64,000 nt of DNA from positions 9,486,001-9,550,000 of the forward strand of contig OX359190.1 of NCBI GenBank assembly GCA_947172415.1, in the 5' to 3' direction. Position numbers and translations under genes: made by a program. This DNA is from Chondrosia reniformis (lineage: Eukaryota; Porifera; Demospongiae; Chondrillida; Chondrillidae). Positions 1 through 63,985 of the stretch are shown piece by piece. The number at the start of each line of letters is the position of its first letter. Within the stretch, counting starts at the first letter, position 1. Under the pieces are notes generated by a model. It searched no databases and had not been told where the DNA came from. It was given only the letters and a program-made list of their open reading frames with translations.

Positions 1-2915
1 ACTGCATTGGATTTGGTTGCTCTGGGGGTACCTTTAAGTTTATCATTAGTAGATATTAATAATCATCCTCTAATTCGTTTACTAGCTCAAGCTGGGTGCA
101 GACTAACAACTGAGAAGATACATGCTGGCGTGAAAACGATTGTTCAAAATACATCATTACTCCCAAAAAAGATTGTGTGTGTCATGGGGCATGCTTGCGG
201 TGGAAAGAGTACATTAATTGCCGCACTTTTAAGAGAGGGAACACTGACTGTTACTAAAGTGTTTAAGCGATTTCAAAAGATTAGCAACATCACTGAAAGA
301 ACAGCTGGCATTGAACCAGTTTCATTTAAAAGCCAAAAATATGGAGAGGTCATATTCTATGACTTTGCAGGTCAACACGACTACCATGGTCCACACCAGA
401 CCTTCCTTGAAGCTCTAGTAAACAGACCAGGAACCACTTTGACTGTCCTGCTCCTCGTGAAGGCAACAGAAGAAGAAAATGACATGGAACAACAGATGAG
501 ACGATGGCTTCAACCACTTTCATGGATCTCATCTGAATGCTCTATTCAGGTGACTGCAGTTGGAAGCTTTGCTGATCAAGTGAAGGACTTCAAGTTGGCC
601 AAAGAAAAATTAACAAGATGCTGTCAGTCAGTGTTGGATAGAGATGTGCCACATATGACATTCACTGATCCAGTCCTCCTTGACTGTCGAAGGATCCTAT
701 CTGATGGCATTGAAAACCTTTGTTCACTCATTCAGCAAACGCAGGTTCCAGTAACTTTATACAGTCCATCAAAACCATACAATGTTCACTGGGTACTGTA
801 CCATTTAAAACAGCTCAACACCTCTGCTTTATCAACTGACATGTTGCCAGATTGGTTGAAAGTCAATGAAATACATCCACATCTATCAGAGAGTGATATT
901 CTCTCACTGTGTAAGGATCTCTCTTCCACTGGACATGTCTTATTTCTTGAAAACATGCAAAACCCAAAGCGAAGTTGGTTAGTTCTCCAACTTGATAAGA
1001 TTCTCCATGAGGTGTATGGAGCTCTCTTCACTGAGATAGCTCCCAAGCTGAACAACCAGTTTGGACTTGTACATGTTGACCAGATAGCAAAAGTGCTCCC
1101 TGATTTTGATCACAGTTTCATTGCCTCACTTCTAACCAGTATGGACTTCTGTCATGAAGTAGATCCAAGTCTATATGTAAGAGGCATACTGTCTGCCAGC
1201 AATAAAGAAGGCTGGTTGTTCTTTCCATGTTTGGTCACTGCTAAACCAACCTCATATTTTCCAAAAGATCAAAGTTCAGAGTACAAGTATCTCTGTTGGC
1301 AAGTCAACACTTCAAAGGAAAAGTTCTTTTCTCCCCGTCTCCTTCAGGCAATTCTCCTTTCTCTTACAACACACCAGACTATCTATTCCCTTGACATTCA
1401 GTCTGAAATTCAGGACAATTCCTTACAAGTCAAGGAACACTGTTGTAATCTGTGGTCAAACGGCATCACCTGGCAGACCACAAGTGGTGTTGATGTACTA
1501 GTCCAGCTCTTTGACAACACCATTGCTCAAGTAATAGCCAGAACTCCACATGAAGAGGATCCACTAATCTTAGTGCATTGCTTGTCTTCAATAGCAGGTG
1601 ATATCCTTCACACAGTCAACCGGCTGTATCCAGACCTGATGTCCCACTTACAAGCATTCATTATTGATAGTGGTGACTACACAGAGCTATGTGACAATCC
1701 CAAGTGTACAACGCCACTACAAGTATTTCGAATATCAAGTATAGCCAAAAGTCTGTCTAACAGAGAAACTGGAAATCCTTACTGTTTGTCTTTAAAGGAA
1801 GAAGGTGGTCATTCTACTAATAAGTCAATCAAGAAGCTCTTCCATGGTTGTGTCCCCTCACTAGACATCATATCTGCCATTAATCCACTTGAGAGAGCAA
1901 GATGTGATGGACCCCCTGACACTACCAACTCTGATCAACCACGTTACCGACAAACATCAGATGATGACCAAGTTCCAAAGAAAACAGATGAAGATTCCAT
2001 TTTAGCCCCTCATCCTTATATGCTGACATCACTTGACAGTGAAACTACTATTTCTAATTCCAATATAAGACCTACTTCTGGTGATGACCGAAATCCAAAA
2101 GAAACGGAAGATGATGTTACTTGCCTAGTGCCAGCCCCTCAAGTTGTTCATCTTCCGAGAGATGGTCTTCAATCATCTGGGACCGATCAAAATCTTTTAA
2201 CCATTTCTAATTCCAATTTAAGGCCTACATCCAATGGATTGTGTCAAGTTGATACATCATTAGATCCTTCGGTTGTCATTCCTCATTCCTCATCAGTATT
2301 CAATACAATTATGCAAGAGAGAGTTGAATCTTTCCTCTCTACTTCAAGCTTCCACGACTTCCTCCATGATCACTGTGACGTGAGGAAAATAGCAACCAAA
2401 CTTCACACCCTTGACACTATTAGTAGAGATGAACTAGATAAAATGGCACATCCTAAGGGCCTACAAGAAGCTAACTCAAGTCTCTATGTCGCTCTGATAA
2501 GTGACCCAAGTATTGCTAAACTAAAGCTTGTTTCAAAGGCTTTGAAATTTGACACTTCACATGAGGGACATCAGACATTAGCAAAGAGAATTGATGAGTT
2601 TGTAAAAGGTACGTATGTTACTGAGTACAGTATATCTGCTATGTATAGATACTAGATATATACATAGTTTAGCGTCCACTGGAACACATCCATGTACCTT
2701 TAAACCAATATATAACAACTTACATACACCTTTGTTTTATTTTATAAATAGAATTTGCAGCAAAAGAGAATTCTTTAGGCTGTTCAAGTGAAATTTTGAC
2801 TGCCAAACCAGAAATTACTTCTACTCCACATTACATTGTGGGAAGAAGTTCAGATTCCATAAGTGATCTATCAAAGAAGTCAGACCATTGGACACAGTCC
2901 AGTTGTGACAAATAA
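1..2915 (+). CDS. ANK-ROCO protein, copy A (3' part; 5' end outside window)
   Basis: The frame is open from base 1, so the N-terminus (probably ankyrin repeats, as in copy B) lies upstream. Exon 1-2608 encodes a Roc-type GTPase: Walker A GHACGGKST near residue 60 and a switch-II-like DFAGQ near residue 120. A COR-like region follows, then a Ser/Thr/Asp-rich linker, then a helical CARD/death-like domain at the end of the exon. The donor after base 2608 (phase 1) fits an acceptor before 2752; exon 2752-2915 adds about 54 codons and ends in TAA, overlapping an AATAAA. It is a near-identical paralogue of 8940-12071 in copy B but ends early: the death-domain and second CARD-like exons of copy B are missing. 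ROCO proteins are GTP-binding signalling scaffolds; death-fold tails suggest innate-immune or apoptotic signalling (inference). The exact biological role is unknown. Confidence 0.85.
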
Positions 2916-4335: not shown

Positions 4336-4692
4336 TTCATTTCATTTCATTCTGTAGAGTTATTTTTTCAACATCTTGTACTGTCCTCAACATATGGTCC
4401 AGGATTTCCTCTCTCCCTCTCTGAACAGCTTCAGCGACATATAAGGAAGTCAGGATGGAAGTTTTAAACATCTTTCTGTTCTTATGCAAATCTCAAATTC
4501 AAAATGGTTAATCTTACCATATTTTTATGATGTGTTTATAGGTACAACTGTCTGGCCGAGGAAGAAATTGTTATGAAACTTGAACCATGATTTTACAAAA
4601 TGATGCTTTAGATTATTTGTTAAACCTGTTTTACAAAATGAGACTAGAAGTGGCTAGTAATAAATGTATGGTTACTATGGAGACCGACTAAA

Positions 4693-4702
4693 GGGGCGGG
4701 GC
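4693..4702 (+). promoter_or_regulatory. GC box upstream of ANK-ROCO copy B
   Basis: GGGGCGGGGC is a consensus Sp/KLF-type GC box in an otherwise AT-rich stretch. It lies about 100 bp before the chosen start codon at 4801. A promoter role is inferred from sequence and position. Confidence 0.5.
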
Positions 4703-4800
4703 TTGTCTGTCAGTCTGATTATGTGTGGGAGGGACAGTTATTTAGGGGCGTACACTTGTGTCAACTAACAATCCCTCCTGCTGAGAGGTCAAGGTTGAAG

Positions 4801-7800
4801 ATGTCTCTTGGTAAGGCTTCCGCCGAAGGAGATTACGATCAAGCGATACAACTTATTAGAGAAGGACACAATCTCGAAGAACAGGTAGAGTATGCGCATC
4901 GTAAGTGGAAGTTAACTGATAAACCTGTACGAAAATGTACTCCCCTGATAATCGCGTCCTCCGAAGGACACGTCGATATCGTACGAGCACTTCTTGGCGC
5001 TGGAGCGAACGTTCACGCTAGAGATGCTTGTCCGGCAAGGCGAAGGACGGCTCTACATTACGCGTGCGGGCATGGGCACCTCGAAGTAGTTAAGGTGCTG
5101 CTGGATAACGGCAGCGAACCGAACGAACCGGATGAGTGTGATACTCTCACTCCGTTATTTCGTGCTATTGTCTATGGATACGAGGACATTGCATTGGAAC
5201 TCGTTTCCAGACTGAGTGAAGAAGATGTTGGTGTAAAGGACAGCGATGGCCATTCAGCTCTTTACTACGCACACAGAAAGACCTTCAGTAAATGTACTGA
5301 ATTGTTACTAAGCAAGATGGGTCACTCTAGGCCTGATGGAGGAGATAGTGAATTCAAAGTGATCATAGATAGAGCTAAAGTTTGGCTTGCAGATTACAAG
5401 AAGAAACATCTTTGTAGAGCTTGCAGAGAAGGTGATTTGGATGAAGTGAAAGAACTTCTTAGGAATGGACATGATATTAAAGAGCAGGTAGAGTATGTTC
5501 ACAGATCATTGCAGGTACCCAATGCAAAACCTCTACCAAAGTGCACTCCACTAATAATAGCATCCTCTGAAGGACACCTCAAAATAGTACAAGAGCTTAT
5601 TAGTGCTGGAGCAAGTGTCAGAACTAAGGACACTGTATTGGGAAGAACTGCTCTAAACTGTGCTTGTCATATTGGTCACCTTCAAGTGGTTCAACTCCTC
5701 TTAGAAAATGGAAGTCTTCTTGATGAACCAGATAATTATGATCATGGTCGAATGAAGAATAAGAAACATGGTCTTACTGCTCTTCATATTGCTTGTGAAG
5801 AGAGACACCTGAAATGTGTTCAGGTGTTACTAGATGCTGGAAGTAGACTGAATGAACCAGATGATTATGACAACCGAACTCCATTAATACTTGCTATTTT
5901 CAATGGACACAAAGAGGTTGCATTAGAACCTCTCCAAAGAGGGGCAGATATCCATGTAAAGAGTAAGGAATATGGTCGCACTGCTCTTCATATTGCTTGT
6001 GTAGAGGGAGACATGAAATTTACTCAGCTGTTACTAAATGCTGGAAGTAGACTGAATGAACCAGATAATTTTAATAACTGCACTCCATTAATGCTTGCTA
6101 TTTTTAATGGATACAAAGAGGTTGCATTAGAACTTCTCCAAAGAGGGGCAGATATCTATGTAAAGAGTAAGGAATATGGTCGCACTGCTCTTCATATTGC
6201 TTGTGTAGAGAGACACCTGAAATGTGCTCAATTGTTACTAGATGCTGGAAGTAGACTGAATGAACCAGATGATTATGACAACCGAACTCCATTAATGCTT
6301 GCTATTTTCAATGGATACAAAGAGGTTGCATTAGAACTTCTTCAAAGAGGGGCAGATATCTATGTAAAGAATAAGGAATATGGTCGCACTGCTCTTCTTA
6401 TTGCTTGTGTAAAGGGAGACATGAAATGTGCTCAATTGTTACTAGATGCTGGAAATAGACTGAATGAACCAGATGATGACAACTGCACTCCATTAATGCT
6501 TGCTATTTTTAATGGATACAAAGAAGTTACATTAGAACTTCTTCAAAGAGGGGCAGATATCCATGTAAAGAGTAAGGAATATGGTCGCACTGCTCTTCAT
6601 ATTGCTTGTGTAAAGGGAGACATGAAATTTACTCAGCTGTTACTAAATGCTGGAAGTAGACTGAATGAACCAGATAATTTTAATAACTGCACTCCATTAA
6701 TGCTTGCTATTTTTAATGGATACAAAGAGGTTGCATTAGAACTTCTCCAAAGAGGGGCAGATATCCATATTAAGAATAGGAAATATGGTCGCACTGCTCT
6801 TCATATTGCTTGTGTAGAGGGACACCTGAAATGTGCTCAGTTGTTACTAGATGCTGGAAGTAGACTGAATGAACCAGATGATTATGACAACCGAACTCCA
6901 TTAATGCTTGGTATTTTCAATGGACATGAAGAGGTTGCATTAGAACTTCTTCAAAGAGGGGCAGATATCCATGTGAAGAGTAAGGAATATGGTCGCACTG
7001 CTCTTCATATTGCTTGTGTAAAGGGAGACCTGAAATGTGCTCAATTGTTACTAGATGCTGGAAATAGACTGAATGAACCAGATGATTATGACAACTGCAC
7101 TCCATTAATGCTTGCTATTTTTAATGGATACAAAGAGGTTGCATTAGAACTTCTTCAAAGAGGGGCAGATATCCATGTAAAGAGTAAGGAATATGGTCGC
7201 ACTGCTCTTCATATTGCTTGTGTAAAGGGACACCTGAAATGTGCTCAATTGTTACTAGATGCTGGAAATAGACTGAATGAACCAGATGATGACAACTGCA
7301 CTCCATTAATACTTGCTATTTTCAATGGACACAAAGAGGTTGCATTAGAACTTCTTCAAAGAGGGGCAGATATCTATGTAAAGAATAAGGAATATGGTCG
7401 CACTGCTCTTCATATTGCTTGTGTAGAGGGACACCTGAAATGTGCTCAATTGTTACTAGATGCTGGAAATAGACTGAATGAACCAGATGATGACAACTGC
7501 ACTCCATTAATGCTTGCTATTTTTAATGGATACAAAGAGGTTGCATTAGAACTTCTTCAAAGAGGGGCAGATATCCATGTAAAGAATAAGGAATATGGTC
7601 GCACTGCTCTTCATATTGCTTGTGTAGAGGGACACCTGAAATGTGCTCAATTGTTACTAGATGCTGGAAATAGACTGAATGAACCAGATGATGACAACTG
7701 CACTCCATTAATGCTTGCTATTTGTAATGGATACAAAGAGGTTGCATTAGAACTTCTTCAAAGAGGGGCAGATATCCATGTAAAGAGTAAGGAATATGGT

Positions 7801-10800
7801 CGCACTGCTCTTCATATTGCTTGTGAAAAGGGACACCTGAAATGTGCTCAATTGTTACTAGATGCTGGAAATAGACTGAATGAACCAGATGATGACAACT
7901 GCACTCCATTAATGCTTGCTATTTTTAATGGATACAAAGAGGTTGCATTAGAACTTCTTCAAAGAGGGGCAGATATCCATGTAAAGAGTAAGGAATATGG
8001 TCGCACTGCTCTTCATATTGCTTGTGTAGAGGGACACCTGAAATGTGCTCAATTGTTACTAGATGCTGGAAATAGACTGAATGAACCAGATGATGACAAC
8101 TGCACTCCATTAATGCTTGCTATTTTTAATGGATACAAAGAGGTTGCATTAGAACTTCTTCAAAGAGGGGCAGATATCCATGTGAAGAGTAAGGAATATG
8201 GTCGCACTGCTCTTCATATTGCTTGTGTAAAGGGACACCTGAAATGTGCTCAGCTGTTAATAGATGCTGGAAATAGACTGAATGAACCAGATCATGATGG
8301 AAACTACACTCCATTAATGCTTGCTATTTTCAATGGACATGACGTTTCCAGACTAAGTGGAGAAGATGTTGGTGTAAAGGACAGTGATGGTCATTCAGCT
8401 CCTTATCACGCACGCAGAATGTCATTCAGTAAATGTACTGAATTGTTACTAAACAAGATGGACCAAGGTGATGGAGAAGATAGTGAAGTGAATGAGGCCA
8501 AGATTTGGCTTGAGGATTACAAGAAGAATCAGATTTATGGTAGTTTTAAAGGAGGTTATTTTTCTGAAGTGGAACAGCTAATAGGGGGAGATATTAGTCT
8601 GTGTGAACAGCTAATGTATTCAAACTTGTCACTAATAGTTGCATCTTCAGAAGGACGCTTCAATTTTGTTCAAAGGCTTCTTAATGCCGGTGTGAATGCT
8701 CAGACAAAGGATATTGCACAAGGAAGAACTGCTTTGCATTATGCATGTAAAAATGGTCATTTGGATATTGTTCAGAGTCTCTTGGGCATCATGAGTTTAA
8801 GTCGAATTAACGAACCAGATAATAGCGGCAAAACTGCCCTTAAACTTGCATGCTTGTCAAGGAATTATCATATTGTCCAAGCTTTAATCTGTAGAGGATG
8901 CAATGTTATAGGAAAAGGTTTACCTGCATTAAATGCAGTTGCTGAGAGGATACCCTTTGATTTACCATTTGCAGAAATAGATATTAATCATCCTCTAATT
9001 CGTTTACTAGCTCAAGCTGGGTGCAAACTAACGCTAAAGAAGATACATGCAGGTGTGAAAACGATTGTTAAAAATACATCATTACTCCCAAAGAAGATTG
9101 TGTGCGTCATGGGGCATGCTTGCAGTGGAAAGAGTACATTAATTGCTGCACTATTAAGAGAGGGAACACTGCTGACTGTTACTAAAGTGTTTAAGCGATT
9201 TCAAAAGATTAGCAACATCACTGAAAGAACAGCTGGCATTGAACCAGTTTCATTTAAAAGCCAAAAATATGGTGAGGTCATATTCTATGACTTTGCAGGT
9301 CAACACGACTACCATGGTCCACACCAGACCTTCCTTGAGGCTCTAGTAAACAGACCAGGAACCACTTTGACTGTCCTGCTCCTCGTGAAGGCAACAGAAG
9401 AAGAAAATGACATGCGACAACAGATGACACGATGGCTTCAACCACTTTCATGGATCTCATCTGAATGCTCTATTCAGGTGACTGCAGTTGGAAGCTTTGC
9501 TGATCAAGTGAAGGACTTCAAGTTGACCAAAAACAAGTTAATAAGATGCTGCCAGTCAGTTTTGGATAGAGATGTGCCACATATGATATTCACTGATCCA
9601 GCCCTCCTTGACTGTCGTAGGATCCAATCTGATGGCATTGAAAAAATTTGTTCACTTATTCAGCAAACTCAAGTTCCAATAACTTTATACAGTCCATCAA
9701 AACCATACAATGTTCACTGGGTACTGTACCATTTAAAACAGCTCAACACCTCTGCTTTATCAACTGACATGTTGCCAGATTGGTTAAAAGTCAATGAAAT
9801 ACATCCACATCTATCAGAGAGTGATATTCTCTCACTGTGTAAGGATCTCTCTTCCACAGGACATGTCTTGTTTCTTGAAAGCATGCAAAACCCAAAGCGA
9901 AGTTGGTTAGTTCTCCAACTTGATAAGATTCTCCATGAGGTGTATGGAGCTCTCTTCACTGAGATAGCTCCCAAGCTGAGCAATCAGTTTGGACTTGTAC
10001 ATGTTGACCAGATAGCAAAAGTGCTTCCTGATTTTGATCACGGTTTCATTGCCTCGCTTCTAACCAGTATGGACTTCTGTCATGAAGTAGATCCAAGTCT
10101 ATATATAAGAGGCATACTGTCTGCCAGCAATAAAGAAGGCTGGCTGTTCTTTCCATGTTTGGTCACTGACAAACCAACCTCATTTTTTCCAAAAGATCAA
10201 AGTTCAGAGTACAAGTATCTCTGTTGGCAAGTCAACACTTCAAAGGAAAAGTTCTTTTCTCCCCATCTCCTTCAGGCAATTCTCCTTTCTCTTACAACAC
10301 ACCAGACTGTCTATTCACTTGACATACGTTCTGAAATTCAGGACAATACCTTACAAGTCAAGGAACACTGTTGTAATCTGTGGTCAAATGGCATCACCTG
10401 GCAGACCACAAGTGGTGTTGATGTACTAGTCCAGCTCTTTGACAACACCATTGCTCAAGTCATAGCCAGAACTCCACATGAAGAGGATCCACTGATCTTA
10501 GTGCGTTGCTTATCTTCAATAGCAGGTGATATCCTTCACACAGTCAACCAGCTGTATCCAGACCTGATGTCCCACTTACAAGCATTCATTATTGATAGTG
10601 GTGACTACACAGAGCTATGTGACAATCCCAAGTGTACAACGCCACTACAAGTATTTCGAATATCAAGTATAACCAAAAGTCTGTCTAACAGAGAAAGTGG
10701 AAATCCTTACTGTTTGTCTTTAAAGGAAGAAGGTGGTCATTCTACTAATAAGTCAATCAAGAAGCTCTTCCGTGGTTGTGTCCCCTCACTAGACATCATA

Positions 10801-13800
10801 TTTGACATGAATCCACTTGAGAGAGCAAGATGTGATGGATCCACTGACACTACCAACTCTGATCAACCACGTTACCGACAAACATCAGATGATGACCAAG
10901 TTCCAAAGAAAACAGATGAAGATTCCATTTTAGCCACTCGTCCTTATATGCTGACATCACTTGACAGTGAAACTACTATTTCTAATTCCAATATAAGACC
11001 TACTTCTGGTGATGACCGAAATCCAAAAGAAATGGAAGATGATGTTACTTGCTTAGCGCCAGCCCCTCAAGTTGTTCATCTTCCGAGAGATGGTCTTCAA
11101 TCATCTGGGACCGATCAAATTCTTTTAACCATTTCTAATTCCAATTTAAGGCCTACATCAGATGGATTGTGTCAGATTGATACATCATTAGATCCTTTGG
11201 CTGACGTTCCTCATTCCTCATCAATATTCAATACAATTATGCAAGAGAGAGTTGAATCTTTCCTCTCTACTCCGAGCTTCCATGACTTCCTCCATGATCA
11301 CTGTGATGTGAGGAAAATAGCAATAAAACTTCACGCCCTTGACGCTATTAGTAGAGATGAACTAGATAAAATGGCTCATCCTAAGGGCCTAAAAGAAGCT
11401 AACGCAAGTCTCTATGTCGCTCTGATAAGTGACCCAAGTATTGCCAAACTAAAGCTTGTTTCAGAGGCTTTGAAATTTGACACTTCACATGAGGGACATC
11501 AGACATTAGCAAAGAGAATTGATGACTTTGTAAAAGGTATGTTACTGAGTACCATACATACATATGTCTGCTACGTATGTATATACACTAGCTACAGTGC
11601 AATCCACTTAATTCAAATCCATATTGCATATTTTGAATCGAACTCTGGTACATCTGGAACTGTCAAGAGCATCTAAATGCTTGCACATAACCTTACTATT
11701 TTTGAGAATTCTATATTCACTTTTTACACCTATATTTCACTTGTATTTTTGCTGTTTAGACATTTATATTTTCCCGATTCCCTAGAAATTTGAATTACAC
11801 TGTATGCAGTTTAGTACCGCTGTAACATATACCTTTAAACCAACATATACAACTTACATACTGTACATCTTTGTTTTATTTTATAAATAGAATATGCAAC
11901 AATAGAGAATTCTTTGGGCTGTGAAACCCTTTCAAGTGAAATTTTGACTGCCAAACCAGAAATCACTTCTATTTCATATTACTTTGCGAGAACAGATTCA
12001 GATCCATTACACTTTTCAAGTTCTTCCGATGAAACACAATGCAAAGAAATGATTACAAACAAAGAAATTAAGTTAGTTCACTTCAAATGTAACAACAATG
12101 AACATGCTTTATGCATTACTGTACATTTAGAACTTTGATGGAAGACTGCACTGAAGAAATATCTTGCAAATGGAAGAAAATAGCAGTAGCTCTTGGGTTC
12201 AGTAATGCTTTGGTAGAATATATTGATCAAAGATTTGCAGAAAATGAACGGTGTCTCTCTGAAGTGTTAAGTAAATGGCTTGACAGAGTTGATGACACTG
12301 GGGAAAGACCAAGAGAATTACAATCATTCTATGATGTTTTAGAGGATTTAAGTGAGCACGATCATCAAAATTTAGAAGCTGTCCAATTAACAGAAGATAT
12401 CACAAAAGATAGTGACTTTGATACCTTAGTGGCAAGTAGGTACAACATTATCATGCATTGTCAATGTTTGGATGTAAATTTTAATTTCTTGTGTAAGTGT
12501 AATTATATTGTGTACATATTCTTTATGATTCAGAAATCAAGGGACTTTCTGTTCACTATAACTCTTTAAAGTTGCTATTAAATGAAGGTAGTCTGATTCT
12601 GCAAGAAGAAACGGGTCACCCCCTTCTCCCCCAGCATCAAGTATCTGAAGAACTGGACATCTCCGACTTTTGGTCGGAGTATGACATTGACCTGCTGAAG
12701 TTTGTCACTGAGAGAGGTTTTGTTGTAGAGGATGGTCTTAGGATTGCAATTAATGATGTAGTTGGTATATTTGGGCAAGTGTGGCATGCAGATACCAATT
12801 ACCTATCTATGTTCCCACAATTAGCAAGTGTTCTCTTCAAAAGGCCTCCACTTCATGAGCTAGTGGTCCTTACGCTTGACACACATGCTGACAAACTGTC
12901 TCTCCCAGATGTGTTGAAGATCAAAAAGTGTCTTTGCTCTGTCTTGGGTCTACCTCTCCACACTGTGCTTTTTGCTGGTTATGAAGAAGGAAGAGTTAAA
13001 CTAAAATTCTTCATACCAAGAGGGAAAATGGGTGAGGTTTCAGAAGATAATTGTAAGAAACGAAGAAAGCTTCATGAGCTATACCATGATCTACTTGATA
13101 AAGGTGTAAAGATAGGCTTACTTCCTGAGGCTGAAATTGATAATTCCAGCAAACCTAAGGTCAATATCACTGATTTCTTATTCTTACACTCCATAGTAAC
13201 TCATACAGAAAGTTTCCTTTCATTCTTCAGGTTAACATTTACATTTCATCACCAGAAGATATAGCTTTGCCAGAGACTATACAGATTATGCAAACATATC
13301 TAAATGAAGGCTATGAGATAACTGCTGTACCTGTATCTGATTCCAAAACAAAAGTTAGTATTGGCAATCTCTACCTATGTATGCATGTCCTGTTGAATCT
13401 TGTTTCTTTAGCTTGAAAATAGTGGAAGAGTATATTACAATTTGTTTCTTTAGCTTGAAGTTTATAATGGAGAAAAATTACTTGATTTACAATTTGGTGA
13501 AAAAGAAACTCAAGGTGCTAGTTGTTCTAAACCTGTAGACCAAGCACCATCACTTTTTAATGCACATCCTGATCCAAAAGGTATAATTGAATGGGTGGAG
13601 AACTTTGAAAATACATATGTGTATTTTGCAGGATCACTGTGTAATGTAAAGGTGAATCAGATTAAAATTTCCTGTATTTCATAGAAATATCCCCTGATGT
13701 GCATCCATTATCTCCTGAAGTTCCCCCTTGTGAAAGATGGACTGATCATGACGACTGGAAACATATTCTTCGCCAAAATTACTGGACCATTCTCATTGAA

Positions 13801-14471
13801 AAGCTCAATGTAAAGGACATAGTAGAAACACTCTATCAAGGAATAAATGGAAGACCATTAGTTACTGACAAAATACGTAATGAAATAAGAGCTGCTCTTG
13901 ATAAGAGAAGCGCCAACATCATATACCTTCAACATCTTAAAGATACAGGCGGAGAAAAGAGCCTGTGCTACTTTTTTCAAATACTATTGGAAACTTATGA
14001 AGTTTATGAAACTCATGAAGAACTCATTACTATATTCAAAGAGGATAAAGATCTTGTACGTAAATATATAAAATGCAGTACTTTTACAATTAAAGAAATG
14101 CAATTAACATTTATCATATATAAACTGTTGCTATCATCAACTCTGAATTGTATTTATACAGGAGAAATACTGGCCAAAAGTTTAGTTTGGAGGATTTTCT
14201 GTCATTGCTACCTATTTTGCCTCACTCTGCCAGTACATATATGTATTAATACATTGAACAAAGATAACAAAGGTAAATTTAAGTTTTACATTATAAGTGC
14301 TACTATATGCCTATGTTTGATTGAATTAATTCCCACTTAGGGTATATTTTGTACTTCTATGGAGAATATACTTATGACATTATTTAAGGGATATTGTTTC
14401 TAAATTTTATCCTGATTGTTTGCTTTCTTCTTTTGTAGATCACAACAATTTATCTTACTGCTGTCAGCTAA
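4801..14471 (+). CDS. Giant ankyrin-repeat ROCO protein with death-fold tail, copy B
   Basis: Eight exons with agreeing phases: 4801-11536, 11891-12071, 12131-12435, 12534-13159, 13231-13353, 13454-13580, 13685-14055 and probably 14439-14471; about 2,830 residues. Order: ankyrin repeats (about residues 10-1380), Roc GTPase (Walker A GHACSGKST near 1435; DFAGQ near 1500), COR-like region, acidic/Ser linker, CARD/death-like helices (about 2150-2240), death-domain-like exon 3, an unrecognised module in exons 4-6, and a second CARD-like domain in exon 7. The start at 4801 is chosen because the first ankyrin helix follows at once; an in-frame ATG 26 codons upstream (4723) is possible. The exon 2 donor (GTTAGT at 12072) is weak but is the one keeping the frame. 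The last exon is the least certain: an unspliced reading stops at 14340. Likely a cytosolic signalling scaffold or sensor (inference). Confidence 0.85.
5770..8335 (+). repeat. Homogenised ankyrin-coding tandem array (201-207 bp unit)
   Basis: Inside the large exon, 12 full units and one partial unit of about 67-69 codons (two ankyrin repeats each) are nearly identical in DNA. Later units repeat every 201 bp, with only a few substitutions between neighbours. Each unit begins at a TALHIAC motif and ends at a KEYGR motif. Flanking ankyrin repeats (4801-5760 and 8340-8930) are well diverged, so the homogeneity is local. Confidence 0.95.
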
Positions 14472-15472
14472 TATTAGTCATAATGGGTACACATTTTTAC
14501 TTGATTATAATTAATGAAATCATATATGCGGACAATAAATAAGAGATATGAGAAAACTAAATTTAAAAGATTTAAAATCTCAAAAGTTTATCAGATGTGA
14601 ACTCAATCACTCAATTGACTGAATTTTCAATTTAGAGTCATATATTTTGTAATTCTTTTAATTTTTGTAATTTAACGCAAGCACCAAAACCACTGTAACA
14701 GTATATTATCATCCTTTCCTGTCACTTTTACATTAGAATAGACTCAATCTACTGTATTTGAAAGTAATAATATTCGTATAATGTATATTGAAATTGAGAG
14801 AGATCAAGAGTTTTGGTGTGTTTAGCTATAATGACTCCAATATTCCTTTGGAATATTACATATAGTATCATGATCATAAAGCTATAATTATACACTTAAA
14901 GTTGTTGCAAAATTTATGTTATAATTAACCATTCTGTAAACATTATTGGTGATATGCGTATGCACATCATATACACTAATAGATTACATTTTGTTACAAT
15001 ATATATGTCCACATACATAATTACAGTTGAAGTACAGTGTTCTATAAATGGTGTGTTCAATTAAGGCTTGTTGCAGAAAATGGCCGCCTCCTCCATGAGG
15101 TGGGTATTAGTTTTATAAGCTGCTCCACTGGAGAATATGGACACTTTATCTCTCTTCAGTGTTCCTGCTATAAAATAGCTGGATAACAACTTTAGTGTTG
15201 GGGGTGGACAGCCAGCTCTTAGGAAAACTATCAACTGGATGAGATACTCAAAATTATTCGAGATCACATTAGGATTATAATTACCTATTACATGAACAAA
15301 GGATTACAGGAAATGTTGTAACCATTATACTGGTAGCTAAATATAGATTATTTATTGATCATCAGCAATATAAACTCAATGAATATATGATGTTTTGACC
15401 CGATGAAGATCTCTGGGCTGAAATGTCCATTATAATTTATGTTGCTTATGTACAATAAACATCTGACAACAG
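14472..15472 (+). repeat. Duplicated 3' flank, copy B
   Basis: The stretch between the ANK-ROCO gene and the end of the convergent NIDO gene holds no gene. From about 14570 it matches the copy A flank (3120-3990). It includes a 15119-15200 segment inverted relative to copy A and the CCGATGA...GAAAT motif at about 15394-15420. Confidence 0.75.
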
Positions 15473-18400
15473 TTAGGTATATGTATAAAGAAGACATACA
15501 TTTATTTTAACCGAAAGATCTGGTTTTCCCTTAAACACTCTCCATATTGAGGCTTTATAGACAATCTTACAAGAAAGAATCCTTTGAATTTTGTGTACAA
15601 ATACTTCACCAACTAGACCATGCCAGAGAGATACAATATAAATATACCAACATGGATCCAAAGTATTAATATTACAAGTATATATTATCCATTATGTATT
15701 ATAATTATATGCACACACCGAATGTCTGTTGATTGCACAAGTCTGTCACATTTTTCACATCAGTAATGCACTGTCTCTTTGTGGCACCATCTAAATAAAC
15801 ATACATAGATCTATTACACCATCTTTTGACATGATTCTAGAGTAAAATCCTATAGGGAGAACTAAACCTGGCAAGAGCTTTGGATGAGGATACAAGAGGT
15901 TTCTCAACTGGGACAGACAACTGTTTCTGGAAATTCCATCCTTTATCAGTGACCCTGGGAATCTTTGTCTTGTTCTTCAGCTTTTGTGAAACTTTCAGCT
16001 TCAGCTCCTTCCATATACAGTAATTAGATACAATGCACAGATATTTCTACATATATTATATTGACATGAATATATGTACAAAACTTATACATGTGTGTAT
16101 AGGTCTATATAATAATATACTAAGTCATGTATACGTACATGTGCATAATAAATTTTACATGTACGTATATACATATATACCAGGTCCACATACGTATATA
16201 CACTAACCATTATTCTCAATGAACAAGATTGCGTGGGTGGAACTGATTACATTTTGTTGACAGTATGTGTTAGATTCTTTAATCTCACGCATAAGGCTCT
16301 CCGACTTGGACATTTCCACATGCAGACAGACACTACCTTGTGGTGGACTAGAGCGTGAAAGATTGAGGGCAAATTTGGCCTCATCCCACCCCCTCCCAGT
16401 CGTGAGGTTCATTGCAAGTGGAGTAGCCATCATCTCTCGATCTTTAGAAAGTGAAATTATATATATAAACATTATAAAGATAATATTTTTACAAGATATT
16501 CATAATACCGTATTTCCTTTATATAATATATATTTTCAATGAAAAAAAAAATTATATATAAAATATATACTATAATATATTATATTAATTATGTAAATGG
16601 ATTAAAAAATACATTAAGTATATATATAGCAAGAAAAAAGGGAGTTAGACATTATATTGTATTGAGCTGTGCAAAGGCAATGATGATCAATAAATAATCA
16701 CTGGAATGTATTATGCCATACCAGCCCGGTGACCAAACTCATCATCACTGAAGTGTACACACTAATGAGACCAAATATGGGCATAACAGCTGTCCGTGGT
16801 TCTTTAATATATTTTACCATCTTGGATGACTGGGAGGCAATCACTGGTTGCCAATGTACTAGGACATCAGTCCCCCAGTCAAGATCAGACTATACTGTCA
16901 TTGACTGGTTTGGTATAATACATTCCAGAGATTATTTACTTATCATCATATAGCTATGTTCCATATATTTGCATATATATGCGTGTATTTAATCCAGAGG
17001 TATTATTGAGCAACAGCAACATAAATTATTGATAATAGAACGTTTCAACCCGTAGGTCTTCATCAGCAAAACATAATAAAATGGTTGGGGTTTATATAGA
17101 AGTTGGATGAGAGGTGTGAAAAAGATGATGTCATAAATTGCGCTGAATAATTTTTGAATTCTATTATCAATAATTTATGTTGCTGTTGCTCAATAATACC
17201 TCTGGATTAAATCATGATCGCAACAAACAACCCTTATCACTTCATATTCGTGTATATGGTCCACGTGGAATGATTTACCCATCAAATGCATAGTTTAAAT
17301 GCTGGCATACCATTAGTTGAGTGAATGTAAAGAGGCTTTGGGAAGTAAGAAGTGTTCACTGGATGGTAGAGGAAGGTGCTGACATTCACAATATTGTTGT
17401 TGTTGGGTTTGCTAGTATCAACTTTGTACACAAATTTATCAAACGATAAACAAGGAACTATACAAAAGAAAAACATATGTCATACGCATAAATTTAATGG
17501 TACAGGTCAAACACCTTGTTTACATATACAGTACATGTGTCTCAGTTGTCACTAATGATGTACTACATTCAATATTATAACTTACATTCTTCAGTGATGA
17601 CTGTCATTGGGTTGGTAAAGGTACCTTCTCCTATAATCATATTCATTGCTGCAAGCCTTACCTCGTATCCTGTGTAAGGCCTTAAACCATGAAATTGATA
17701 AAATGTTGCAGTATGGCTGACAATTTTAGTGATGTTACCAAAGCCTGGATGAGTGAGGGTGATTATGTAACCATCTACAATGCTTGCATCACCCCTGTAC
17801 TCCCACTTGATGTATATTTCTGAGGAACTCATTCCGAGGGTTCTTGTGATCAGTGGTGCTTCTAGAACTATATATTAAAGAGATACAGGACCACATAATA
17901 TTTAATTTATACGCAGTGGCTAGAGTACTGGTACAGGTAACAGAACGCATTGCCAATACAGGTACACAAAAAGTTAGCTATTACAGTGTATACAACAGTG
18001 GTTAAGAACCGTCAAGAATAATATTACATTTATATAATTATAATATAAGTATAACAGTACATAGATAAGCACCAGCTTACAAACTCCGTACACATAGCTG
18101 TGTTAACGTATATAGCTGCAATAAAACAATACTTCAGTGTCATGCAGTAATAAACAAGTTAATGATAACCCTGCTTACAGTATCAAACCTTACTGGTACA
18201 CTAATCCAAAAATTAATGATACCAGTACCCGTAACGAACATGTCAATTCTTAAGATACGGTACCGGCACTTTAACCAGTAAGGTAATAAATTAGCTATAA
18301 ATTAGGCTATAAATTTATGGAAAGAAGTAAATTTTGTTTGGAGTGCATTATCAGGAATTGTTGCTGAAGGCATGTATATATACTGTGTGTGTTTCTGTTT

Positions 18401-21325
18401 GTATGAAAACTGTATATACATACTTGCAGCTGGTGTAGTTATTTGAGCAGACAGTCTAGCCACATTTTCACTGTTGCTAAACTTTGTGATGCCACATGCA
18501 TACCTTGTGTTTTGTGACAGTCCTTCAACCGTAATACTGCTTAAACCTACAATGTTAGGAATACGTAGTAGGTTCGATAATTACTATTATTAAACTTCCC
18601 TTCAATCGATCATTCTGCATATATATATACAGTACAAGTTACAATATACTAAGGTGATTATTTATATATATTTATATATAACAAATAACTTGTACCTGAT
18701 TTGTTACGGATCATGAATTTTGTCATTTTCTGTCCATTCCCAGTACATTGCAACATGTAGTGGATGACGTCACCATTTGCAGACAACATGGGCTCATCGT
18801 CAATAAATGAGAATGTGGCAGAGAAAGGTGTTAGAGCTGTAGCCTTGAAACCTCTAAAAGGTTCTACAAGCATGCAATACGTAACTGCAGATTACAATAC
18901 AACCTTCAATATCTTTATTAACAGGACCTTGCTTGGCAAAAGTATAAAAGCAATGTACAAACATGTGTTTATGCTGACAAACATTAATAGCGACAGAGGC
19001 ATACCCATGTATATACAGTGTGAATTACAAAATCCAACAGTAATGTAATTCCATGGTTTTAATATTTATAATAACTCACTTATTTTGCAAGAAGGAGGAC
19101 CATATCTGAACACACATTTACAGTCATACAACCTCTGGTTGCATCCTTCATAGGGACATGAGCATCTGTCTGCTGATAATCCTATGTGAGCAATCAAATG
19201 ATATATCAAACCACAACTATTGTATCCTGAATAAATGTCAACAACATGGTCATTGGCTCATCATATCTATGCTGTACTATATTTTATACATATACCTATT
19301 ATATAATCTCAGTACTGATCAGCATACTAAAGGTTTATCAATGTTGAAAACTCTATGTTTAATATAGACTCACTTCTCATCACTTTACATTAATAGGCTA
19401 TATACATTTCAATTAATGTCTCACCTGTCATGCTGATTACATATTGTCCCACTGTTCTGCAGTTAGTTGAAGTTTGCAGAAGAAGAAGATCCTTAACTTC
19501 TTCTTCTCTTATCGACAGTAATGTAGAGCCTACTGCTGCTCGAGGATTGTCTTCATCAATAAACGAGATAGCTATGATTGCCAGCATTTGATCTTCTTTT
19601 AGACCAGATTGGGGACAAGCTTGAGATGCTCCTCTGAGAAATGGCATCCCGTTGCTAGGGAAACTGAAAAGTCCATATGTCATGCTGCCATTGGTTGCCA
19701 GGACAACCTGAAAGGTATTGCCCTGAGGGAAATGGGCATATATAGTTAAAATTCTCATGTCTAATTAGAATATACCACAACAAGTTAATTAAATATTACC
19801 ATATGCACAGTAATTTCTTAGTAATGGTGAAATATGTATATTATACTGATAGATAAGTTTATTGGAGCGACAGTATCTGCAACAAAAATTGAGCTATATG
19901 GATTGAACATTTCAACCCATAGGTCTTCATCAGCAATAATATATATATATATAATACACTCTACATAGGAAACTATAGAACATTATAATATACATATACG
20001 TATATATACATAGGATTCACAGAAGATCAAGATAAAGAAAAAGAAAAAGACAAAGACTCCTAGGATCACTGATGAAGGGTGGAATTCCCAGAAACAGCTG
20101 TCTGACCCAGTGGAGAAGAAGATGAAAAAAGGCTAGAAGGAAGAATTAAAGATTCCTGTATCTTCATCCAAAGCTCTCTTCAGGTTTAGTTCCCCTATAG
20201 GCTTTTTACAGAATAGGCATAGCATGTAGGAAAATGGTGTATTGAGTGTGTGGGTAACCCTGATTTATTATTCTATAATCTTCGAGATTAGCTTTAGGTA
20301 TCAAAAGTACCCCATTTACATATACAGTAAATAATCATAATATTGCATGTGTGTATATATGTAGACTGTTGTACATAACATATGCACATGTATTATATTA
20401 TATGTACGTATTGTGTGCACTTACTGCAGCTTGTGATGTTGTTCCATCAGTACACTTTAGTGTCAGTATGTAGTTGTGTTGGGTAATAATAACCAATGAT
20501 TGTGCAATAAATCCATCATTCATGCATTCAACATCTAAATAATGCAGACATCAGTTATACGTATATGTAGTGTGTGTATTTGTACATGAATAAACAATTG
20601 CAAAGTAAGGAAGTAATTAATAATAACATTATAAAGTTAAGAGGGAAAAACACAAAAGAAGCAATTTCTGGGTATCAAACACCCAGGACAGCGGCATGAC
20701 CACCAGTGTGCTGCTACGGAGCTACAATTGCCACAACAATGCTCGATTCATGTTTCCCCTCTTACCGTGCATATACTGCCTACATGCATTCATGCATGTG
20801 TTAGTAATGTACGTATGATTACCTCTCCTAGCCTTGGCCAAGAGGACTGGGTTTCTTGTTTCTATGACTGTAATATCGGGTCTCAAAGTTGGGTAGATTG
20901 ATGTTGGAAGAAACCCCATGTTTATGGCAATGCCGTTGCTTAGGAACACAGCACCCTCACCATAGTAACCAGTTCCCTAATAATTGGAGAGGAAACAATT
21001 AAATATACACTGTATAAAGTTCCATTCACGTTTCCTTAAGTAGCCTCCATTTTGTACTGGTAATTGCCATTTTGAGCTATTTTGCTGTACTTATTGTATT
21101 ATGCATATATACAATAACATAAATTATATATACCTCAAAATATTCAGTTGTATAATCTCCAATAATATAATCAGCATTGAGTTCTCTCTTTCCACTGGTC
21201 ACATCTTGACTGTAAACTGGTGAGGCCAGCCTCAGTCTACTTGGGTACAGGTCCTCCTTCCTTAAGCAGCAAGCCTTGTGAGACCACAGCAGTATGGCCA
21301 AATGAAAGAGTAGAACCACCCTCAT
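15473..21325 (-). CDS. Secreted NIDO-domain protein with fibronectin type III repeats
   Basis: About 13 exons, transcribed right to left: 21325-21134, 20976-20823, 20534-20425, 19722-19425, 19181-19080, 18863-18696, 18546-18424, 17867-17586, 17457-17311, about 16858-16735, about 16436-16208, 15790-15719 and 15612-15473 (stop). The first exon starts with a hydrophobic signal peptide (MRVVLLFHLAILLW). Exons 1-4 form a NIDO domain; GNTFQVVLATNG is the hallmark strand of nidogen-like domains. Exon 5 is a short Cys-rich EGF/laminin-like segment; exons 6-8 give fibronectin III-type folds. Exon 10 has a hydrophobic stretch (IFGLISVYTSVMMSLV) that could be a membrane span or a beta-sandwich core. Phases agree at most junctions; the exon 10/11 junction is unresolved. 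NIDO proteins are extracellular-matrix or adhesion proteins. No one-to-one vertebrate orthologue is recognised. Confidence 0.78.
15835..16012 (-). repeat. Interspersed repeat family A
   Basis: Minus-oriented copy in an intron of the NIDO gene. It carries the family blocks in order: a CCTATAGGG-type junction, TTTGGATGAGGATACAAGAG, a GACAACTGTTTCTGG-like block, and ATCAGTGACCCTGGGAATC. Confidence 0.8.
16987..17212. mobile_element. MITE with 54-bp perfect terminal inverted repeats
   Basis: Bases 16987-17040 and 17159-17212 are exact reverse complements, enclosing about 118 bp with no coding capacity. The outer ends read ATTTAATCCAGAGG and its complement, so TTAA could be the duplicated target, as for piggyBac-type elements (inference). 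It sits in the NIDO gene intron between exons at 17311 and 16858. Just inside the left arm is a CTGATGA...GAAAC hammerhead-like core on the minus strand. Confidence 0.9.
17041..17070 (-). ncRNA. Hammerhead-ribozyme-like core motif (candidate)
   Basis: The minus strand reads CTGATGA, a 13-base spacer that can form a short stem II around UACG, then GAAAC; these are the two conserved boxes of hammerhead ribozymes. Related versions occur at 19908-19935 (-), about 3940-3965 (+) and about 15394-15420 (+), the latter two with CCGATGA and GAAAT. Stems I and III and a cleavage triplet could not be demonstrated by eye, so catalysis is not claimed. Confidence 0.3.
18184..18285. repeat. Short fold-back element
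   Basis: CCTTACTGGTA near the left end and its complement ACCAGTAAGG near the right end enclose a segment containing CGGTACCGG-type sequence like that bounding the element at 40850-42640. It lies in a NIDO gene intron. Confidence 0.5.
20010..20250 (+). repeat. Interspersed repeat family A
   Basis: Plus-oriented copy with the GATCACTGATGAAGGGTGGA block, the CCCAGAAACAGCTGTCTG block and a tail resembling GCATAGCATGTAGGAAAATG. It is in the NIDO gene intron between exons at 20425 and 19722. Confidence 0.8.
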
Positions 21326-28100: not shown

Positions 28101-31100
28101 TGCCTGTGTGAGACCTACCGGTGCCGGTGTGAGACCTACCGGTGCCGGTGTGAGACCTACCGGTGCCAGTGTGAGACCTACCGGTGCCAGTGTGAGACCT
28201 ACTGGTGCTAGTGTGAGATTAAGGCCTCACCTTTGAGCAGCTTCTTCTCCTTGGGCATCAAGGTCCTGTCTAACTTTGAAGATGACTCCTATTGACAGCT
28301 TGGGGCCTCTAATCGGGGATTTCCCAAATTTCTCCTAAGAAAGAAAACTAATTTGATAAACCTTACTTGAGTTTCCCCTAAAGTTTGACAAACTTAATCA
28401 AAACTACGTATGTACTGCCGTGCTAAACTCGGAGTGGAATTACTTCATTGTGGTATTTCCTCGGACAACCAAATGAAGTGCCTGAAGGAAATTACTTCAA
28501 TCGCTGTATTAACCACTCCAAAAACTCCTTACAGAGTAATCACACTATTGCATAAACTATACTGTATATTGCCTCATGCTATATATGTCACCCTTATCTA
28601 TACGAAAATGGTGTCTTAGATTACGTATGTAGTTTGGTCAACCGCACTATAGACAGGTTTCACTGTACATACACATTAAAGTACACAGTCTAATAGGGAT
28701 TGAGGAAAGGGGCTAACCCTGTCATCATTCATCATGACCCTGTGGTAGAGCTCCCCTGGCAACGTATGTCCCCTCCTTCTAAGGCCATTGGTCCCTGGCA
28801 CACTGGAGGCACCGTTGGAGGGGGAGGACCTCCCGGAGGTGGTGGGGCTCGGAGAGTTGTTATCTCGCCCACCGCGGCCTGGGACACTTAGGCTGGACGA
28901 ACGACCTTTGACCTTGTGAACAATATCCTCAGCAACTGCAATACATATAAAGTACATCTAGGGGTTAAAGTTCACTTAGAAATTCAACAAACTGTCAACA
29001 TTTCAGCTAATAGTGCTTACCTACCTATGAATACGTTTATATGGATATGAAATGTGTGATACCTTTCAGACTACTAACTACTATGTACTGTCCCATGGGG
29101 AACATAATACAAGAATAGGGCAATCTAACATAAGCACTGTCTGTGTAGTACTCCCATGGGCAAACCTTTATTCATACATATATATGTTTAAAATATCACC
29201 ATGACAACCAATATCAAAAGATGTCTCTCCTTACTTGTTCTAAAGCTCGACATTCCGTTGGAGATGAAGCCATCATTGGAAGTGGTGGGGCAGACAGCCT
29301 CGGGGTCATACAGCGGACAAGATGGAGGTGGGTGCTTCATCGGATGAAATACCTTTGTGATCAGTAGTTCACTTGTCACTCTAAGAAATAAGACATTTTA
29401 TTGAAACGTGGCATACACCTTGTGTTACCATGGTAACTTGGCATGTGAGAATGAGTTAGAGTACAGTAAATAAGTAAGGCTTTCCCGTGTTGAATAAGAT
29501 AAATAAATATAAGACAATATCAATTGTTACAAAATTTGTGATATCAATCAAACTAAGCTACTTAGCTTACTTTATGTAGTGAATCTTAGTCGGATCTGCC
29601 TTCCTTTTCACACCTTCGGAACCGAACATCAGTTCAGAGTACATTGTCACATCAGGCTACAGGACGAGGGAGAAAGGAGACTAATGTGTGAATTCTGATT
29701 ACTGGCTGCTCTCTGATAACTGCATCATCACTAATTAGTGGAAAAGACAGAGAGATTCCCAGGGTCACTGATGAAGGGTGGAATTCCCAGAAACAGCTGT
29801 CTGGCCCAGTGGAGAAGAAGAGAAAGAGAAGGAGAAAATTCTTGTATCCTCATCCAAAGCTCTCACTAGGTTTAGTTCCCTATAAGCCTTTACTTGTAAG
29901 TAAATGTAGCATGCAAGTAAAATGGTGTGTTAGAATATTCATTTGTACATATATACTTGTATGTAGTATTGATTCTAGTCATGTACTAGTCATGTACGTA
30001 CTAGTCATGTACTAGTCATGTACGTACTAGTCATGTACTAGTCATGTACGTACTAGTCATGTACTAGTCATGTACTAGTCATGTACTAGTCATGTACTAG
30101 TCATGTACTAGTCATGTACGTACTAGTCATGTACTAGTCATGTACTAGTCATGTACTAGTCATGTACTAGTCATGTACTAGTCATGTACTAGTCATGTAC
30201 TAGTCATGTACTAGTCATGTACGTACTAGTCATGTACTAGTCATGTACGTACTAGTCATGTACTAGTCATGTACGTACTAGTCATGTACGTACTAGTCAT
30301 GTACTAGTCATGTACGTACTAGTCATGTACTAGTCACGTTCAAATACCAAATTGCTATTGGTTTATCAGAGCTAGAAAGAACTTCATTGAAACAACACCA
30401 GGCGCCCACAGGCCAAAGGGAGTGCCTGTCAAAATAGTTCACTCAATCTTGCTCACCATTTTCCCTCTTAACATCTTGGTAACGTGAGCTGCTGTCCTCT
30501 TTGCACAACTGGCACCACCTAGACTCTTGCTCTTCCAAATGCCACTTCTCTCTGAGGTACAGGAGGTCAAACTGTTTGAGGTACACAACGAGGAGCTCTT
30601 GCCTGGAAGGTGTGTCTGAGAGCTGCTCAAAGTCATATTACCAGAGTCAACTACATCCTGGATATATCAGAACAGACGTGTACACTATACTTGGGATTTC
30701 GGACACTAACTCTAACAATAACATACATAGGTTCTATCCATCCTATCTCTACAGAATGGTCCACCTACCCTATCTCCACAGAATGGTCTGCCTACCCTAT
30801 CTCTACAGAATGGTCCACCTACCCTATCTCTACAGAATGGTCCATCTACCGTATCTCTACAGAATGGTCCACCTACCGTATCTCTCTTGCTGGAGTTCAT
30901 TGTTTCTGAGTCGTATAGCAGCTTATCATGTTCTCTCATTACAATCACTCGAATTTCAAACAAACTAAAATCACGATTGCGTAACCTAAGAAAAACATTA
31001 CACAACACACCAGATATATTGCACAATAATTGTTGCCTATTCATGCAGCAACTGTTTCAATTAGTGACCAATGAGATCATACCATGTGTTTATTGAGGAA

Positions 31101-63723: not shown

Positions 63724-63792
63724 CTATAAAGCGACCATCCAAAGATTAATAGAAATATTCTTTGTAGCTACGTACATATGCGTAATTAACAC

Positions 63793-63985
63793 ACCATTTT
63801 TCTTACATCTACTTTAAAGTAAAGGCCTATAGAGAACTAAACCTAGTGAGAGCTTTGGATGAGGATACAAGAGTTTTCTCCTTCTTCTCTTCTTCTCCAC
63901 TTGGCCAGACAGCTGTTTCTGGGAATTCCACTCTTCATCAGTGACCCTGGGAGTCTTTGTCATGTTCTTGATCTTTTGTGAGTCA
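63793..63985 (-). repeat. Interspersed repeat family A
   Basis: Nearly full-length minus copy, from the ACACCATTTTTCTTACATCT tail through AGAGCTTTGGATGAGGATAC, CAGACAGCTGTTTCTGGGAA and CATCAGTGACCCTGGGAGTC. Confidence 0.85.

Follow-up and report, generated by a model that had tools for sequence, protein, structure and literature searches.

We analysed a 64,000-nucleotide stretch of the sponge Chondrosia reniformis, hereafter the window (contig OX359190.1, here C2, positions 9486001-9550000, of a 117.4-Mb genome in 15 contigs). On its forward strand lies a candidate gene of the ROCO type, the third of three tandem copies, which combines an ankyrin array and a Roc-type GTPase domain with a C-terminal tail of death-fold and adaptor-like exons. 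Eight exons can be joined in one frame by seven GT-AG introns (354, 59, 98, 71, 100, 104 and 106 bases, 5' to 3') into 2830 residues from Met 4801. The splice sites were picked to preserve the frame, so that in-frame joining is no independent proof of splicing; Met 4801 is an assumed start. Our reading, which we hold with a probability of roughly 0.6, is that one gene encodes a protein of ~2830 residues in the order ankyrin, Roc, (COR), DED/CARD-like, death domain, TRADD-N-like and CARD, that this protein works as proposed in the last section, and that its tail forms a cassette that is acquired or lost whole among ROCO genes.

4801..11536, forward strand: exon 1, in the open frame 4648-11676 (donor AAAAG/GTATGT after 11536), with the ankyrin, Roc, COR-like and DED/CARD-like regions
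5755..8337, forward strand: tandem ankyrin array, 201-bp unit, 12.7 copies, 93% matches (Tandem Repeats Finder)
9100..9462, forward strand: probable Roc GTPase domain (Pfam, paralogue profile), with P-loop GHACSGKST and DFAGQ by eye
9463..10827, forward strand: conserved post-Roc region, aligned across 12 ROCO sequences and taken as COR
11236..11536, forward strand: helical region, tentatively DED/CARD-like, that closes exon 1 (hhalign, conservation in the Roc subfamily)
11891..12071, forward strand: exon 2, linker of ~60 residues, acceptor kept in tandem copies 1 and 2
12131..12435, forward strand: exon 3, probable death domain (Pfam Death, borderline)
12534..13159, forward strand: exon 4, N-terminal part (12534-12838) and TRADD-N-like core (12839-13159) (15 paralogous loci; AlphaFold2 of the core)
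13231..13353, forward strand: exon 5, short, beta-alpha-beta by eye; by eye, several paralogues have similar open reading frames (ORFs) 3' of the module
13454..13580, forward strand: exon 6, linker (gene model)
13685..14055, forward strand: exon 7, CARD by family (Pfam)
14162..14185, forward strand: exon 8, EKYWPKV and stop (gene model)

The GTPase scaffold and the death-fold exons

Is the GTPase domain a Roc domain? The window's own sequence scores 19.2 bits with Pfam Roc, under the cut-off of 27, and 23.5 bits with MMR_HSR1, over the cut-off of 21.9; the Roc cut-off is passed by four of the eight ROCO proteins scanned, the window protein not being among them. A profile built from the window gene and 11 ROCO paralogues and compared with 177635 PDB sequences has the Roc domain of LRRK2 as its top match (E 1e-6), and we assign the window domain to Roc by family, its own match being sub-threshold. 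The underlying alignment, A5, holds the window gene and 11 ROCO stretches from 56 Roc matches, exon pieces counted among the 56. Pfam COR is absent from the matches of all eight ROCO proteins scanned at E <= 1, and within 8500-11538 Pfam gives neither a kinase nor a NACHT match at E <= 10.

The death-domain exon matches Pfam Death with E 2e-4, a borderline result at 21.9 bits against a cut-off of 22.6, and its next match is DEATH_SH3BP4 (17.6 bits); at least 142 stretches of the genome match Pfam Death. The CARD exon alone has no Pfam match and belongs to a large family, with at least 143 matches in the same genome, itself counted. Pfam CARD is matched at E <= 10 by 11 of 13 aligned members of this family (best E 1.6e-5), the window's own exon being without a match, so that the exon is assigned to CARD by family. 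Death-fold similarity, as proposed in a first-pass annotation of this DNA, is thus found at the level of sequence, below the cut-off for the death domain and through relatives for the CARD. The DED/CARD-like region is without a Pfam match; its family aligns with that of the CARD exon in hhalign (P 6e-4, probability 29%), and we make this assignment tentatively. Compared with PDB sequences, the profiles of both families found no death-fold chain; the best PDB match of the CARD-exon profile was a designed protein (E 2.9e-5). A search of NCBIfam gave nothing useful. Alignment A3 unites the window's own sequence with 12 of 14 search matches, omitting L026 and L029; L023 and L005 were cut so as to start behind an in-frame stop, and L064 so as to finish ahead of one. 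A4 unites the window's sequence with nine of ten, omitting L037 and with L046 shortened to finish ahead of a stop.

How does the tail join the scaffold? The first-pass annotation had the tail exons in place: 12131-12435, the parts within 12534-13580 and 13685-14055 are indeed open, whereas its segment 11250-11536 is the end of the ORF 4648-11676. Its list omitted the linker exon 11891-12071, and a direct splice from 11536 to 12131 is out of frame (G+AA CTT TGA, stop). Either the linker exon or an acceptor at 12145, which is weaker, restores the frame. The shared first part of exon 2 stays in frame in both other tandem copies even though it differs there by indels of 9 and 3 bases, as coding sequence would.

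The junction also allows for two genes, a ROCO gene ending in exon 2 and a separate adaptor with death domain, TRADD-N-like domain and CARD starting at ATG 12138. Two observations weigh for this division and against a single gene: the frame of exon 2, when read through, meets a TGA at 12136-12138 that overlaps the ATG (12138-12140) of the death-domain frame, and the tail is missing from the ROCO genes of copies 1 and 2. However, exons 2 and 3 join in phase across a plausible 59-base intron, and ORFs of this kind directly follow two distant ROCO paralogues on the same strand, which favours a fusion, although neighbouring genes are possible there too. We consider two genes unlikely; the joinable exons make a single gene possible, and it would then be expressed as one transcript.

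The module of exons 4-6

The module encoded by exons 4-6, which had been put at roughly 290 residues, counts 292 and does not match Pfam TRADD-N; it had been called unrecognised, and here we propose a candidate identity. Paralogues of it occur at 15 loci in the genome (16 with the window). Exon 4 is 53-55% identical to its closest three paralogues, all on contig C13. Against two of these three, the ratio of nonsynonymous to synonymous change (dN/dS) is 0.28 and 0.40, averaged over the whole divergence, and together with the identity of exon 4 these values suggest that the module is conserved more than by chance. A ratio of 1.7 between modules L011 and L012 has very few changes behind it.

The whole of exon 4 gave a poor AlphaFold2 model (predicted local distance difference test, pLDDT, 41.3), and the core was therefore folded separately. 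Without an alignment, the core was modelled as beta-alpha-beta-beta-alpha-beta (E-H-E-E-H-E), with a pLDDT of 62.7 and a predicted template modelling score (pTM) of 0.48. This topology is that of the TRADD-N fold type, and the fold itself is common. Indeed, a Foldseek search with the core ranks TRADD (1f3v) 17th of 1201 matches with a non-significant E of 0.037, and its top three rows are phenylalanine hydroxylase, the regulatory domain of which is an ACT domain. TRADD is absent from the best 50 VIA-align rows obtained with the core, where PDB matches lie below significance.

The turn between strands 2 and 3 is Gly-Ser in 14 of the 15 aligned module members and Gly-Arg in the window gene:

12992..12994, forward strand: AGA (Arg) codon at the turn of strands 2 and 3, Ser in the other 14 of 15 (alignment A2)

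In TRADD-N domains, this turn carries a tiny residue followed by Ser, with Cys as an occasional substitute, according to the portion of Kaur et al. (2021, PMC8195603) used throughout. Alignment A2 comprises 15 of the 16 module loci (C1:9796830 left out) and A6 comprises 14 (L012 left out as well). Pfam TRADD-N (PF13820) matched nowhere in the genome, but it detected none of 14 controls either, and scans of module members gave no TRADD-N profile match. We therefore call the module TRADD-N-like only, and this is how it is best read.

The core might instead be another domain of the RRM/ACT/ferredoxin-like or ubiquitin-like kind, unrelated to TRADD-N. In favour of this, and to the detriment of the TRADD-N assignment, the module profile matches the ubiquitin-like domain of FAF1 with E down to 0.0075 over 31 residues, the fold is widespread, and the hhalign score of the module against TRADD (15.5) lies within those of shuffled sequences. 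Ubiquitin reaches 14.0 in the same comparison, and neither value is meaningful. Ubiquitin has two strands ahead of its first helix; a ubiquitin-like core was set aside despite the FAF1 matches because a single strand precedes the first helix in the model. The death-domain neighbourhood and the Gly-Ser turn also fit TRADD-N as described in PMC8195603, Amphimedon included, as far as the portion used goes. Such an unrelated domain is therefore an explanation that we regard as rather unlikely but worth keeping in mind.

Tandem copies and possible exchange of the tail

Is the tail a fixed part of this ROCO family? The close relatives of the Roc region are two more tandem copies on C2 (93%) and seven regions on C10, C6 and C4 (61-66%). 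The DED/CARD-like region is present in 10 of 10 loci of this close Roc subfamily, window gene counted, while among the matches listed the window copy alone has a module match nearby. The 3' part of copy 2 lies in the window itself:

1..2860, forward strand: 3' part of tandem copy 2; 2-2628 is 95% identical to 8924-11552, and 2691-2860 is 82% identical to 11826-12007

In this comparison, in which only matches longer than 100 bases were taken in, copies 1 and 2 parallel the window gene up to ~12007 and resume in its 3' flank at ~14577 (copy 2) and ~14671 (copy 1). Copy 2 has no stretch equivalent to 12007-14577, and both copies are without the death domain, module and CARD exons. The ankyrin array of copy 1 has at least 5.8 units, the stretch compared beginning inside the array.

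Relatives of the tail stand behind other ROCO genes. Two of the three closest C13 modules follow distant-clade ROCO genes on the same strand, at 2.4-2.7 kb. The order is ROCO, CARD (E 6.5e-7, over the cut-off), linker ORF and module at the first locus, and ROCO, death domain (16.3 bits, below the cut-off), death domain (2.8e-11), linker, module, DED/CARD-like and death domain (3.2e-7) at the second. A ROCO gene on C7, with one stop inside its match, has downstream a CARD of the exon-7 type that is 39% identical (Pfam CARD E 0.034, below the cut-off), with two DED/CARD-like ORFs between them by eye. A ROCO protein with stacked death-fold domains, as the first-pass annotation had it, thus gains from the gene model and from the recurrence at the C13 and C7 loci, and is qualified by the sub-threshold Roc and the unmatched COR. 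A pair of caspase-family fragments, both interrupted by a stop, lies at C13:342908-343635, ~5 kb from the module locus C13:348934.

The trees of scaffold and module disagree. In the Roc tree, the window gene groups with the C2/C6/C10/C4 set (100/100), and in the module tree, built from 13 of the 16 loci, its module groups with the C13 modules (99/99). This discordance is as expected of an exchange of tails. The Roc tree carries a long-branch warning, as C7 meets C13 and C9 is long, and C10_6629k is long in the module tree; the order among the three tandem copies is not resolved by the tree.

When would the tail have come or gone? The synonymous divergence (dS) of Roc between the C2 copies is ~0.07, whereas that between the C2 and C13 modules is 0.9-1.2, so that the split between these modules is much older than the tandem duplication. 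When 12008-14900 was used as a DNA query, the matches besides the stretch itself were three to exon 4 on C13 (68-69%), two to the 3' flank, in copies 2 and 1, and a short one on C4. With no close DNA match among these, it is unlikely that the tail was inserted very recently from a donor that still exists. Given the module divergence and the lack of a close donor, an older gain of the tail, or its loss from the other two copies, is more likely than a fresh insertion. Searches of viral and genome contig sets for relatives confirmed none.

These observations also bear on whether the tail is still in use. It could be a decaying remnant that was functional in an ancestor, was lost in copies 1 and 2 and is relaxed in copy 3. 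Its absence from two of three tandem copies and the lack of the turn Ser in the window copy alone, of 15 aligned, point this way and away from a working cassette. On the other hand, the gene model has no internal stop and GT-AG at every intron, and the dN/dS values given above also speak against decay, although an average over the whole divergence leaves room for recent relaxation. We judge such decay improbable and retain the cassette as the preferred explanation.

Relation to known systems and possible function

The closest parallel is found among the Amphimedon TRADD-N proteins of the NCOA6 clade. As far as the portion of PMC8195603 used here describes them, they number 357, against 16 loci here; the TRADD-N-type domain comes after one, two or three death-like domains, many of the proteins contain ankyrin repeats, and the group shows lineage-specific expansion and diverse architectures. 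The unit is N-terminal there, with a variable C-terminus, whereas here it is C-terminal to an ankyrin-Roc scaffold. In the same portion, the AP-GTPase (Roc)/COR appears in prokaryotic systems and DAP kinase, not with animal TRADD-N. Among the papers listed in literature searches, none presents a Roc-TRADD-N fusion by title or abstract opening; the architecture tables of PMC8195603 may list the arrangement.

The animal ROCO proteins DAPK1 and LRRK2 likewise have ankyrin repeats and Roc, and DAPK1 a C-terminal death domain (partly described in PMC11378527); the window gene differs in having several death-fold units and a TRADD-N-like domain and no kinase match in the interval scanned. Shuffling of exons is known from ROCO genes of brown algae, where it concerns leucine-rich repeats, according to the part of PMC11378527 used. 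TRADD (PDB 1f3v, 1f2h) joins a TRADD-N-type fold to a death domain in one polypeptide, as the window gene would; here, the scaffold is much larger and the death domain precedes the module, unlike in TRADD, where it follows. The architecture is probably real, and unusual within a known theme, an ankyrin-ROCO scaffold whose death-fold tail can be exchanged.

In the mechanism that we consider most likely, the expanding ankyrin array would form the ligand-binding part and the nucleotide state of Roc would gate the protein. Once activated, its C-terminal tail may nucleate assemblies, in which the death domain and CARD would recruit death-fold partners and caspases and the TRADD-N-like domain would offer a second docking surface. 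The N-terminal domain of TRADD binds the MATH domain of TRAF2, and the genome contains 19 caspase-family and 113 MATH matches. If transcribed as modelled, the gene would place a Ras-like switch, a GTPase of the LRRK2 or DAPK type, in one protein with signalling through death folds and a TRADD-type adaptor. An early-branching animal would then combine these functions, and the tandem copies point to such tails being gained and lost whole. The tailed copy 3 and the tailless copies 1 and 2 form a natural comparison for the tail's contribution.

NLR inflammasome sensors likewise join a repeat sensor, an NTPase switch and a death-fold effector in one protein; the window gene has a Ras-like Roc switch instead and no NACHT match in the interval scanned. 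The link to inflammasome-type sensing, and with it an immune role, would hold by analogy. The ROCO genes of this animal could even make up a class of sensors akin to inflammasomes: the number of repeats in the array would vary, and the tail (DED-like, death domain, TRADD-N-like, CARD) would be exchanged between distant clades, rewiring outputs to death-fold or TRAF-type signalling; we offer this generalisation as a tentative one that is somewhat more doubtful than not.

MATH is a known partner of TRADD-N, and a cluster of MATH matches, often two per open frame, lies at C2:9336761-9404804, ~80 kb upstream of the window, possibly by coincidence. Elsewhere in the window, a repeat at 15809-15989 has five more matches of 68-77% (~20041-20206, 29753-29894, 39441-39600, 51933-52125 and 63791-63981) and is perhaps a small mobile element. 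ORFs at 17575-19764 on the minus strand resemble fibronectin type III domains by eye and perhaps belong to a receptor gene.
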